The translations under genes were made by a program, and so were the position numbers. The notes under the pieces are model-generated. The model saw only the letters and a program-made list of their open reading frames with translations. It was not told the DNA's origin and ran no database searches. Below, one piece after another: positions 22,459 through 64,000 of a stretch of 64,000 nt of DNA (the first letter of the stretch is position 1; each line of letters begins with the position of its first letter). The stretch spans positions 1,800,557 to 1,864,556 of the forward strand of contig LODT01000028.1 in NCBI GenBank assembly GCA_001606155.1, read 5' to 3'. Origin of the DNA: Tieghemostelium lacteum (Eukaryota > Evosea > Eumycetozoa > Dictyosteliales > Raperosteliaceae).

Positions 22459-23586
22459 TTAAAATCTTGTGCAAGTTGGGAATAAAGGACATTTTTTATC
22501 ATTATTTTTAATATGTTCACATCTTTCTGGACAATTAATATCATCACATGTCAAACATTTATCAATAGTTAAACAGGCAAAGTGTCCTTTTGGTAAGTCT
22601 ACACAAGTATAACCAATGGAACATGGATAACTTCTAGAAAAGTGTAAATTATCACCTGTTATACAATGACCACGATGAAGTGTAGGAGGCATTATTGATG
22701 TAGTTGATGTTGTTAGCGATGTTGTTGATGATGTTGGTGATGTTGTTGATGATGTTGTTGGTGATGTTGTTGATGATGTTGTTGATGATGTTGTAGATGC
22801 AGTTGAAGAGGTAGTTGAAGAGGTAGTTGATGTTGTTGGCGATGTTGTTGATGATGTTATTGATGATGTTGTTGGTGATGTTGTTGGTGATGTAGCAGTG
22901 ACTGGAGTACTTGTGGCAGTAGCAGTAGCAGTGGCAGTGACTGGTGGAGTACTAGTGGCAGTGACTGGTGATGTAGCAGTGGCAGTGACTGGTGATGTAG
23001 CAGTAGCTGTGACTGGTGATGTTGCGGTAGCTGTGACTGGTGATGTTGCAGTAGCTGTGACTGGTGATGTAGCAGTAGCTGTGACTGGTAATGTTGCAGT
23101 AGCTGTTGTTGATGTAGATATAGGAGGTACAGGTACCTCTTTAGAAGGATCACAATAACCATCTGAAAAATGTTGTGTCCAATATGGTACACCATTACTA
23201 TCCTTTGCATACCCAAAACCAATATTTGGAAAATTAGCTAGAATAAGATTATTATGTTTCATCATAATATCCACTAGATCATCATCATTATGTTGCCCTA
23301 CAGCTATATTTTGACCTGCTAATGAAGCATTCACCTCACCAAATTTATGCATTCTCTCTAAAAGGCCACCAAGATCACTATCTTGTGTCATTTGTTTAAG
23401 ATATGCTTGGTATTCTGAATGACGTTGAGCACTTTTTTGTAAACAATTATCTAGTGTCATTGGTGGCAATTGAGCATTTGCTCTTTTGGCATTCACTAAT
23501 CCTAATTGATATTGAGGATTATGTTGACATTCTATAGTAATTATAAATATTGTAAAATATAAAACTAAAATTAATTTATTTATCAT
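22459..23586 (-). CDS. Secreted CAP/SCP-domain protein with mucin-like repeats
   Basis: Single exon, 375 residues. A signal peptide (MINKLILVLYFTIFIITIEC) precedes a CAP (PR-1/SCP) domain at about 25-145: an N-terminal helix with LDNCLQKSAQRHSEYQ, the conserved GQNIAVG, and GFGYAKD...WTQHFSDGYC. The CAP fold is somewhat degenerate. A region of Thr, Ala, Ser and Pro follows: eight-residue TATATSPV-type repeats and then Ser/Thr/Pro blocks, a probable O-glycosylated stalk. The C-terminal ~75 residues are rich in cysteine (CITGDN, CSIGYTCVDLPKGHFAC, CLTCDDINCPERC). It is likely a secreted or matrix protein of the multicellular stage; this role is inference. Confidence 0.85.
   Translation of the reverse strand: MINKLILVLYFTIFIITIECQHNPQYQLGLVNAKRANAQLPPMTLDNCLQKSAQRHSEYQAYLKQMTQDSDLGGLLERMHKFGEVNASLAGQNIAVGQHNDDDLVDIMMKHNNLILANFPNIGFGYAKDSNGVPYWTQHFSDGYCDPSKEVPVPPISTSTTATATLPVTATATSPVTATATSPVTATATSPVTATATSPVTATATSPVTATSTPPVTATATATATSTPVTATSPTTSPTTSSITSSTTSPTTSTTSSTTSSTASTTSSTTSSTTSPTTSSTTSPTSSTTSLTTSTTSIMPPTLHRGHCITGDNLHFSRSYPCSIGYTCVDLPKGHFACLTIDKCLTCDDINCPERCEHIKNNDKKCPLFPTCTRF
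22905..23115 (-). repeat. 24-bp tandem repeat in the CAP protein gene
   Basis: About seven copies of a 24-bp unit encoding TATATSPV, with small changes (Ala/Ser swaps). An adjoining (plus-strand GATGTTGTT-like) array at about 22690-22890 encodes the Ser/Thr/Pro blocks. Copy number is likely to vary between strains. Confidence 0.85.
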
Positions 23587-57276: not shown

Positions 57277-60200
57277 ATGATAAATAATTCAAATAATTTA
57301 TCTGTTTTACTCTTTGTATTTTTAATTTTATTTATTGCGGCTTTTGATTGTCAAACTTGTATGTGTGTTGGGTTGCGTTAATCAAAAACAAAAAAGGTAC
57401 TTCTAGATTATTAATTAAATTAAAAAATGATAAAATAAAGTTGATAGTATTGATATTACACCAAATGCAGCTTCTGGTGATTTTATAATAACACCTTATT
57501 TAAAATCACAAATATTTGAAATTACAGTAAAATTTAAAGAGACGACATACAATGGAACATTTAAATTTTCATTGACTAGTGGTGCTAATGATTTAGAGAT
57601 TTTTAATCAATCACCTATTAGTATAACTAATGGTGTGTCAAATCCAATTCAATTTAATAGTGGTATATTTTTCTCTGCTACTGATAGAATTTACAATGCA
57701 CCATATTCTATATTATTACGTACTGATACTGATATGGTTATAAAGTTATTGCCATTTAATATATCAAGTCCTTATTATAGTGGTTCACAAAATACACCAG
57801 CACAAGTATCAGTAATTGAAACTAGTATAGATAATATATCTTCATCAGGTACAACATCATCAGGTAACAGCGTGACACTTTGTAAAATTGATCAAATTTT
57901 AGAGGTTAGTAATCCAAATCTTTATAATTTCTATTATAATTTCTATGAGGGAAATAATTATGCTCTGACAACGGTTGGTAAAAGTCAGAATGGTAATATC
58001 CAATTACTAGTACAGCAGTATCTCTATTATCCAACATTTCAATATCAGTATTCAATTAATGATTATGTGAATAGCACATTTCAATTTTCACAGAATATTG
58101 CATGTAATCAATTCCCAAATTTCAATATACAAGGTGAGGCCATTTCAATTGAGGGTAGTGCTGATATACAATTATTCTTAAAGACTAATAATAGACTTGC
58201 AGTTCTGCAAATTGCTGGAGAAGAGTATCTCAATCCAGAGAGAATTCTACCAGACAATGACCCAACTACATTTGAGTATCTTATAAAACGTGTTAGAACT
58301 ACTGGTAATTCCATTTTGGTAAATGCTGCTGGACAAACATTAAATATAGCAATTCCTCCACCTATAACAACACCACCAACTACATTTACAGTATGTTGTA
58401 TAAGTACAAATTCCCAGTTTTCACCAAATGACAATACATTACTATACCAATTAAATTATGATGTATTTAGATTTTCTGTTACTTTCCAAGGTAATCCAAG
58501 TGATTTCTCATTTCTTCAAGTCTATCAAATCTATGATGGAGGTATTGCATCAGATCCTATATACTTGAATAGTCTAACAGCTCAAACACAGTATTTCACT
58601 ATTAGACCAAGATATAGAGCACAAGAGGTAACCATTAGAGGTACCTATAAGAATGGTGATACCTATGTATTCCCAACACCTACATCACTTTCATGGGAAT
58701 ATAATCAACCACATTCTAATGTAGTAGGTATGGCAGGAGCACTACCAAACTTTTCAAGTTACAATACTGCAGAGATTTCCTATAGTCTTGATGGTCTAAG
58801 TGGTTTCTACTACCCTGATATGAAATTCACATATCAATACTATATGAGTGGTAACCTTACTACTTTTCCAATAGCTATAAAGACAGTTGGTGGTGATTGG
58901 CCATTTGATTGTACTGGATGGAGACAATCAATGATTTGTGATGTTGGTTACAGTTTTCTTCCTGATATACCATTTGGTACTGAATTCATATCTCAGAATC
59001 CAAAAATGACACAACCTCAAATCTATACAACAACTGCTAATCAACAAGAGTTAGTATATGATGTTATAAGTCCAATTATGCTTGTAAACTTTAAATTTGG
59101 TATTAAAAGGTTACCTAATCTCAATGTATCTCTTGATTTTATGGAGATTCAAATTCAAGATGATATCGGTGTAGACTATGAAAGATGTCAGTTTAATTAT
59201 GGTCCAATTGTATTCCTAATTAATCAACAAACTAGATTCTATGGTGGTTATAAAGGAGCTTCAGCACATTTATATGATATCACTAATTTTAATAGATATT
59301 TTTGTACTTCTAGAATGACAATGAAATGTGAAGATATCAGAGGAAACACACTACAATGGGATTCGAATGATTTTGTTGAACGTCCCTTAGTAAAACCTTA
59401 TCTAGTTAAAGTACTCAATGGTCATTGTAAGGATACTCTACCATTGGAATTTGATAATATACAATTGATATCCTACAATTATATCTACTCTCTTGGAAAT
59501 AGTAGCCATATTACTATTGACATTTATACATCATTTATTGGTATAATACAATCACAACTATCAAAATACTCTATTCTATTGAAATATGGTAATTCTGAAA
59601 TTTCATTAGAACCTGATTTGTCAACTCTAAACAAACTACAGAATACTTTTACTCAAAGTATTAGTATAGAACCACCAGAAAGAACTGAGATATATAATAT
59701 CACAATGGATATTGTATTCACAGATGCTAATTACACAAATTCACTTCATTTAAATAATGATGAATTGAGATATATATCAACTCAGTTACCAGCACAATCC
59801 AATAAGTTTGAAGCTACTTTCAAATTACAGGACCAATTATTCAGCGGATTCAATTTTGGATTCGCAGTTGGTGATGTTGACCCTAATGTAACGTTAGTAG
59901 CTAACCCATACCAGAATATATCAATGGTCAAAATAGCATATGTATCCCAAATTGGACCACTAAAAACCCAGTATTACTACCTCTATAATCTAACACAATC
60001 ATCTACTTATGTCTTAACTAGATCTGCAACTGAAGTAGGTTGGAATGCATGGGTAGATGAATTTTGTGATTACAGAGGTAATTGTCAAAGAATGACTCAA
60101 ATGCAGACTAGAAATGGTGTTTCTGCTGGTACATCTGCAATATACACTGCATGGAACCAAGTTGTTAAAACTCTAACTATTGATCCACCAACCCTTAGAT

Positions 60201-61986
60201 CCAACTCTGCCAACAGATTGGTTAAAGTAACATTTTACTGTAAACCAAATTTGGATGTCTACAATGGAAATCTACCATACTGGGAAAAGGATACAAATAT
60301 TGATTTTATATTCTATCTAGTTGAGAAACAGTCACTTAACAGATTGGGTTACACAATGAAAACTATTGCCAATTTCACTTATTATACTGAGTTTGAATTA
60401 CCATTGAACTGGGGTGAAAGAGGTATTCATAAAATTGGTGTTCACAATATATTCTCTTCAAGATACGGTAGATTTTGGAAATATAACTATGGTATTGAAA
60501 CTTTTAATATTGTTCAAGCTTCAATGGAACCTGCAATTTGGACTACTTTAATTGATATGTCAAATCCTATTGCACTATATCTAACTGGTAGTAATTTAGG
60601 GTCACTAAATTCACCACAATATAAACCCTATATAATATCAGATAGAGTATACCAAGATCTAGGTGAATACCAATATATTAACTCTACCTATGGATATGCA
60701 ACTCTACCCAATAATTTGAAATTTGTAAGTGGTATGAATCTTACACTTGGTAGTCCAAATGCTGATCCTATTAGACTGTTCATTCTCAGTTGTATGTACC
60801 CAGAATGTAGTGGAAAAGGTACTTGTAAATCGGGTAACTGTTTATGTCAACCTGGTTGGTCTGGTGTAGATTGCTCCATTAGTCTAAATTACCAATGTCT
60901 TGATAATTGTACAAATCATGGACTTTGTATAAACTATGTTTGTTCATGTTTTGAAGGTTTTATCGGTCCAAATTGTTCTATATCTATATTAGAAAATACA
61001 ACACCACTGAATATTACAGCACTTTCAGATGAACCTACATCAAGTATCACACCTTCCATTGGTGGTAAAGACCTGACTGATGAATCTTTGGAAACTTCAT
61101 TTGGTGTATTATTAAAACAGGTTCAAGAACTAGATTTTTATGATAACTTAATTAAAGAATTCAATCTTACTCAACTATGGAGACTAGTATCAAGTAATGA
61201 TACAACTAAACTCTATCATCTAACATTAACACCTGGTTCGTTAATGAGTGTACTCATTGAAACAACCAAAGATCAAAGTAAAACCTTTACATTTGCCAAT
61301 GAAAGCATTACACTACCACCAAACAGTTTGAAATACTATATAAAATTAGAGAATTACGAATTCTTCTCATCTGTAAATCATCTTACATTTGTGTGGGAAA
61401 CTAATTATATAGCACCTAATCCATGCGATACCATTGAACAAAATCAAACATTAGGTGGATCAACAGTTGATGATATACATTACGTTGTAATTCCAGCTAA
61501 TCAATTACAACTCTATGGTAGATTCTCAAATTTTATCATTATAGATACTAGAATACTTCAATCCTCAAACAAAGCTGTTCAATCTGATAAGGATAAAAAA
61601 TTACTCAACATCAAAGTAAATATACCATTTTTTAGAAATTCTGTTGAAATGGACCCAGTAAGTATCCTTGATTATAAATAATGCTTTTGATGATAAATAG
61701 GTACTAATAGTATTATAAATAGGATTTTTCTGTACTATTAGATTACAACTCACCAGAACCATCTGGTAATGAATTTGATGATGAATGTAATATTATAGGT
61801 GGTTTACCTAAATTTGCAATTCCAGTTATTGTTGTTGGTGGTGTAGTTGTATTGGTAACTGCTTTAACTGTAACGTTTGTATTATTATTTAAGTATAGTC
61901 TTGCTTTTAAAACCACTGTACTATCGTGGAAATTAAAATTTTTCGTATCTAAGGCATCCTATGGTACAAAATTAACAAAATTATAA
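57277..61986 (+). CDS. Large EGF-containing type I surface protein (ComC/Tgr-like layout)
   Basis: Exons 57277-57358, 57441-61661 and 61742-61986 (phases 1 and 1), about 1515 residues. Signal peptide (LLFVFLILFIAAFDC). The ectodomain is a long run of beta-rich repeats. Two EGF-like units lie near residues 1175-1240 (CSGKGTCKSGNCLCQPGW, CTNHGLCINYVCSCFEGF). The last exon adds a membrane span (FAIPVIVVGGVVVLVTAL) and a short basic tail. The domain order resembles the dictyostelid ComC and Tgr/tiger families of adhesion or signalling proteins, but no diagnostic name is possible. The tail-side donor GTATCC (61662) was chosen over GTAAGT at 61658 by phase. It is the second gene in from the telomere. 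Confidence 0.8.
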
Positions 61987-63218: not shown

Positions 63219-63435
63219 ACAAGATAGATAAATCATTATTTAAATATTATTTTTTTTATTAGTCTATTTATATCTATTCTTCTTAAAAGTTACGAGGATT
63301 AACCAATTTCATGGTTTTTATAAAATCAATGAATGTACAATAGCACAATAATATTTTTTTAACAGAAATAGTAAAAACACTATAAAATATTCATTTTTTG
63401 GTGTTCCACCTAAATTACAAAAATGTATTTCCTCT

Positions 63436-63469
63436 GAATTAAGTACCAATTGCTAAGAGAAAGTTATAG
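63436..63469 (+). repeat. Subtelomeric direct repeat, copy 1
   Basis: Reads GAATTAAGTACCAATTGCTA then AGAGAAAGTTATAG. It matches copy 2 at 63748-63780 with about four differences. Confidence 0.8.
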
Positions 63470-63747
63470 ATAACATTATTACATGAATATTATAAAAATT
63501 AGGTATATTTTCTATGTAATTTATACGAGATATTTTCGATTTACAAAATACAGATAGAGATTAACTGTATGAATTTATCTGTTTGAATTTTCTTGAGTAA
63601 AGTGGGTATATTATAAGAGAAAAGTGCTTATAATAAAAATAGGGAGTGAAGAATAAAATTCAATCAAGTAAGAATGTAATTATAATACTATTTTCATACA
63701 GATAATGTATATCTGTATATTAATTGTACAAATTTGTGGTGGTCTAT

Positions 63748-63780
63748 GAATTAGGTACCAATCGCTAAGAGAAAGTTGTA
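63748..63780 (+). repeat. Subtelomeric direct repeat, copy 2
   Basis: Reads GAATTAGGTACCAATCGCTA then AGAGAAAGTTGTA. It is 312 bp downstream of copy 1. The spacing suggests a subtelomeric duplication unit or a simple degenerate repeat. Confidence 0.8.
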
Positions 63781-63830
63781 GGGGTTATGTATTCAATTCT
63801 CATCTTGGAATTGTAGCTAATTTCACTGTG

Positions 63831-64000
63831 GATAGGGTAGGTTAGTGAAGGATAGGTTTAGGTGGGTAGGGTAGGGTAGGGGTAGGGTAGGGTAGGGTAG
63901 GGGTAGGGTACGGGTAGGGTAGGGTAGGTAGGGTAGGGTAGGGTAGGGTAGGGTAGGGTAGGGTAGGGTAGGGTAGGGTAGGGTAGGGTAGGGTAGGGTA
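63831..64000 (+). repeat. Telomere repeat array, (TAGGG)n
   Basis: From 63831 the sequence moves through degenerate GGTTAG/GGATAGG words into a regular array of GGGTA units from about 63864 to the last base, about 25 or more units with a few GGGGTA and GGTA variants near the start. The G-rich strand runs 5'->3' towards the window end, the orientation expected of a right-hand telomere. Degenerate units on the inside and pure units outside are typical of a chromosome end rather than an interstitial block. The unit is five bases, TAGGG, unlike the six-base TTAGGG of animals and the A/G-mixed ends of D. discoideum. Confidence 0.9.

Follow-up and report, generated by a model that had tools for sequence, protein, structure and literature searches.

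Regular G-strand end repeats have been described in two dictyostelids, D. fasciculatum (TTAGGG) and P. pallidum (TAAGGG), which belong to groups 1 and 2, respectively (PMC6759168, PMC4931340). The chromosome ends and the rDNA palindrome ends of D. discoideum consist of irregular A(G)1-8 units (PMC6759168), and repeats of 21 and 11 bases are reported for D. firmibasis (PMC11193728). In the myxomycetes Didymium and Physarum, TTAGGG was found on the rDNA (PMC13182076). Tieghemostelium lacteum (= Dictyostelium lacteum) is a dictyostelid of group 3, in the family Raperosteliaceae. Its genome, read by 454 sequencing, was published in 2016 as 23.4 Mb in 54 gap-free contigs, and its chromosome telomeres were called normal (PMC4931340); the size agrees with that of the 43-contig assembly used here. 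The main text of that paper contains no AGGG, and none of the papers listed by literature searches was found to name TAGGG for T. lacteum; the supplement of PMC4931340 may give the unit, which is perhaps already on record.

The chromosome ends of T. lacteum carry the unit TAGGG. The units are regular, as in D. fasciculatum and P. pallidum and unlike those of D. discoideum, but they are five bases long instead of six. The identical unit is present in Giardia, along with TAAGG and TAAGGG variants (PMC10999387), and in the fungus Peltaster fructicola (PMC10100673). The first-pass annotation of this DNA had called the unit unusual; it is indeed rare, but these two organisms were already known to have it. 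Both are distant from T. lacteum, and TAGGG therefore probably arose independently.

The window, that is, the whole stretch of 64,000 nucleotides that was analyzed, corresponds to C23:1800557-1864556, the right end of contig 23 (1,864,556 bases), and the last 3000 bases of the two are identical. Three features are found at its end:

63864..64000, + strand: TAGGG telomere array, with the G strand running 5' to 3' toward the chromosome end
63835..63863, + strand: class B subtelomere-telomere junction GGGTAGGTTAGTGAAGGATAGGTTTAGGT, from the alignment of 7 class B ends
63410..63834, + strand: class B subtelomeric element, non-coding, common to the ends C7L, C8L, C17R, C27R, and C30L

Read by eye, the regular array takes up the final 137 bases of the window, and its last base is the last base of contig 23. 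Tandem Repeats Finder recognized a single period-5 array with the consensus TAGGG at 63833-64000 (33.4 copies, 86% matches, 5% indels). The variant units TAGGGG, TACGGG, and TAGG are few and proximal by eye, extending up to about 63929, and perfect TAGGG units follow from about 63930 to the final base. When the arrays of the whole assembly were cut into 410 tokens, 359 were TAGGG, seven TAGGGG, and six TAGG. As assembled, the arrays are short, with lengths of 40-210 bases for the 18 ends under one tokenising rule. Since 454 sequencing miscalls homopolymers, the variant units are unable to place the boundary of the template.

From the assembly (23,333,832 bases, 43 contigs), 3 kb was taken at each of the 86 contig ends, and the genome-wide pattern was exact (TAGGG)4 only, so that the following counts apply to this pattern and not to shorter or degenerate internal stretches. 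It had 286 matches, 178 forward and 108 reverse, against about 1e-6 expected by chance in 23.3 Mb with independent bases, and the reversed-pattern control had 0 matches genome-wide. All 286 matches are located at most 196 bp from a contig end, at 18 of the 86 ends, and at every one of these 18 the G strand points outward; no internal or inward-pointing exact (TAGGG)4 was found in 23.3 Mb. The contig C2 (1,465,623 bases) has an array at both ends, while the remaining array-bearing contigs are broken. A 19th telomeric end is C4L, where the assembly stops as the junction reaches GAGGG, without an exact (TAGGG)4. The annotation had proposed that the contig stops at the natural end of a chromosome, with TAGGG units whose G strand points outward. 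Both the recurrence of the array at other contig ends and its confinement to terminal positions agree with that proposal, and the mainly internal arrays that the annotation had named as a refutation were not found with exact (TAGGG)4.

The other 67 contig ends have neither an array nor a junction. Most of them stop in other sequence, for example (TAA)n, and are probably assembly breaks. Tandem Repeats Finder also detected a 24-base minisatellite, GTAGCAGTAGCTGTGACTGGTGAT, at 22925-23106 of the window. Similar repeats are where C7R, C26R, C27L, and C35L stop, and they are a dispersed family that breaks the assembly.

Homologous junctions are found at the 19 telomeric ends, on contigs that are otherwise different, and can be divided into two classes. 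The alignment included 11 class A and 7 class B ends, with C20L left out as its sequence did not match the extraction pattern. The class A junction is TAAGCAAATAC followed by GGTGGGTAG(G/A)G(T)AGGTTAGGTGAGGTTA and is found at twelve ends (C2L, C2R, C4L, C6R, C9L, C12L, C15R, C20L, C22R, C31R, C41R, and C42L), which adjoin a GAAGGTT satellite of 16-60 units per 3 kb in a single orientation. The class B junction, GGTAGGTTAGTGAAGG(A/C)TAGGTTTAGG, lies directly proximal to the array at seven ends (C7L, C8L, C17R, C27R, C30L, C39R, and C23R, which is the window). In blastn comparisons of 63410-64000 with five other ends, the class B element showed 88.6-91.4% identity with the array included and 85.9-89.6% with the last 150 bases of each end excluded. 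C39R shares sequence with the window only from 63809 on and has 63 GAAGGTT units per 3 kb. Between ends in general, the subtelomeric elements are 86-97% identical. What the annotation had described as degenerate proximal units is, at 63835-63863, a subtelomeric junction conserved at seven ends; this conservation in the alignment rules out decaying telomere units.

Several further observations concern the subtelomeres. Within the class B element, a sequence of about 178 bases is imperfectly repeated, and 63605-63781 of the window matches a second copy in C8L, C17R, and C27R with 70-71% identity. Four ends without TAGGG (C10R, C16L, C19L, and C29L) stop within the GAAGGTT satellite, which has 20-36 units per 3 kb there and the same outward orientation as in class A; they are therefore probably further chromosome ends. 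Provided that each end was assembled only once, the 19 telomeric ends and these four satellite ends suggest 10 chromosomes or more, perhaps 12. The open frame at 57572-61681 of the window, the last large one on the way to the subtelomere, has 1369 residues. It includes EGF-like domains and a ComC supersandwich domain, which suggests a protein of the surface or adhesion type.

A search for a telomerase reverse transcriptase (TERT) gene, also proposed by the annotation, was successful. A profile search of the contigs revealed one locus matching Telomerase_RBD, and the 931-residue protein is 100% identical over its full length to DLAC_00648 of Tieghemostelium lacteum. DLAC_00648 matches Telomerase_RBD (PF12009) with 47 bits (cut-off 25) and RVT_1 (PF00078) with 38.3 bits (cut-off 29.6), and its alignment with human TERT spans residues 226-898 (E 3.8e-37). 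It includes, in order, FYRTET (at 440), LRFVPK, VLDIQKCYDNI, MGIPQGSNIS, GRFIDDYLQI, and WCGFLI, which we take to be the T motif and motifs 1, A (with D593), B', C (with D753 and D754), and E, respectively. D593, D753, D754, and FYRTET are in register with human TERT. Judged from its sequence, DLAC_00648 is an intact TERT gene. D. discoideum also has a TERT homologue, but that protein carries a long poly-Asn insertion, which is described as absent in other sequenced dictyostelids (PMC6759168). The only run of at least four Asn in DLAC_00648 is five long, at 192, well N-terminal to the reverse transcriptase domain, in agreement with that description.

The TAGGG arrays are telomeres, very probably made by telomerase, and confidence is high that the T. 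lacteum telomere is built of telomerase-added TAGGG on one of two conserved subtelomeric junctions. In the proposed mechanism, the product of DLAC_00648 would copy a CCCTA-permuted template in a putative telomerase RNA and would add TAGGG to the 3'-ending strand, extending an array seated on a class A or class B junction; a 3' overhang and the real length of the array are likewise presumed. In kind this is known: a true telomere with an ordinary mechanism and a rare unit. In D. discoideum, telomerase activity is disputed, being reported as not detected (PMC6592521) and as putative (PMC6759168).

The ends may be real chromosome ends that are now kept mainly by recombination between ends in an ALT-like manner, with telomerase minor or inactive. 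Subtelomeric elements are common to several ends, and their 86-97% identity indicates that the ends exchange sequence; moreover, the tert-like gene of D. discoideum can be deleted, and recombination was proposed to maintain the ends of that species (PMC6759168). However, the near uniformity of the arrays is what templated addition gives, and the TERT gene is intact; ALT-like maintenance as the main process is thus improbable.

Two other explanations deny that these are chromosome ends at all, and both are exceedingly unlikely. In the first, the array is an ordinary microsatellite from inside a chromosome, where the assembly ended by chance; many other contigs do end in simple repeats, (TAA)n among them. 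This explanation is refuted by exact (TAGGG)4 matches that are all terminal and outward, unless the assembly systematically broke at every internal copy, all of one orientation; furthermore, the DNA next to the arrays is common to several ends. In the second, the arrays come from contaminating DNA or from the ends of rDNA palindromes outside the chromosomes; dictyostelids do carry such palindromes with telomere-like ends (PMC4931340, PMC6759168), and some array-bearing contigs are only 10-22 kb long (C6, C12, C22, and C41). The window, however, belongs to a contig of 1.86 Mb that contains protein-coding genes, and the palindrome ends of T. lacteum are A/T-rich, unlike its chromosome ends (PMC4931340). 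Telomerase-added TAGGG on chromosome ends is the preferred explanation.

The annotation had also held that the array fixes the probable template of the telomerase RNA and could be used to find that RNA. The array does not fix which permutation of CCCTA is used, nor was it enough on its own to find the RNA. In the literature, no telomerase RNA had been identified in D. discoideum as of 2019, according to PMC6759168, and a literature search on telomerase RNA and Dictyostelium returned no title reporting such an RNA among the matches listed. A 2025 review of telomerase RNA evolution names Amoebozoa once, for the loss of telomerase in Entamoeba (PMC12133305).

For the search, (CCCTA)n runs were listed for each 3'-end permutation, and sites farther than about 250 bases from any contig end were treated as non-terminal. 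CCCTACCC followed by a non-T base, with at least 8 bases, was found at 94 sites (74 non-terminal), and the other four permutations, with at least 9 bases, at 27, 35, 28, and 54 sites (14, 31, 28, and 49 non-terminal). The non-terminal template-like sites add up to 196: 122 for the four permutations listed from 9 bases upward, and 74 for the one listed from 8 bases upward.

DUSE is a dictyostelid promoter word (PMC7919456). It was taken here as CCATAA, which is present upstream of 3 of the 5 U2/U6 matches in the genome. TCCATAA followed by CTACCC gave 15 matches at 56-116 bases, versus 44 for the reversed pattern, and 25 versus 33 at 118-178 bases; CCATAA followed by ACCCTA at 56-116 bases gave 60 versus 303. 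Since all three gapped searches yielded fewer matches than their reversed controls, there is no DUSE-template enrichment; this applies to the words and distances given and to templates of at least 8 bases, with CCCATAA before CTACCC lying outside the searches. Among the 196 non-terminal sites, three have the DUSE word at 56-116 bases (C11:541140, C19:463456, and C29:533607). C11:541140 is at the edge of an opposite-strand open frame, between two frames resembling exons of one gene, and C19:463456 is inside a frame that is open through all 250 bases; C29:533607 is the sole non-coding site. The template sites that were read are 21 of the 28 CTACCCTAC sites, together with C11 from the other permutation classes. 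Apart from C29, 15 of the 20 CTACCCTAC sites read are in frames open across the surrounding 250 bases and five are not. The small-RNA search suggested by the annotation thus left one weak non-coding lead, which is no better than chance and has a low probability.

At this candidate, a 12-bp stem carries the template CTACCCTAC in its loop. The DUSE-like word lies 82 bases upstream, and a short hairpin followed by a T run was recognized by eye. Of 2000 shuffles, 82 gave a stem at least as good as the one around the template, and the whole fold is unremarkable (z -1.83), with 10 of 200 shuffles doing equally well. The DUSE-like word and the start codon of a divergent open frame overlap. An Rfam search of the locus gave a single match (E 0.38), outside the candidate, and no tRNA was found at the locus. 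The stem encloses the template, but there is no pseudoknot, and known telomerase RNAs are unlike this layout. There is a slim chance that the intergenic stretch C29:533585-533737 is the telomerase RNA gene, with CTACCCTAC as its template. As a separate observation, C29:533700-533737 stands out from otherwise very AT-rich intergenic DNA as an island with a GC content of about 50% (30-base bin). With its small AAGGT/ACCTT hairpin before the T run, it resembles the 3' portion of a small RNA.

If C29:533585-533737 were the telomerase RNA gene, it would be the first telomerase RNA known in a dictyostelid. It would then show the template drifting from group to group, and would do so in a species whose rDNA palindromes reportedly have a different, D. 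discoideum-like end. The exact unit and the two junction classes are now assigned to the telomere of a group-3 dictyostelid, and the units differ by dictyostelid group: TTAGGG in group 1, TAAGGG in group 2, TAGGG in group 3, and irregular A(G)n in group 4, represented by D. discoideum. Because the template must change in step with the unit, dictyostelids are suited to the discovery of telomerase RNA by comparison between species, and the worth of the TAGGG telomere of T. lacteum lies in the comparative handle that it offers on the dictyostelid telomerase RNA.
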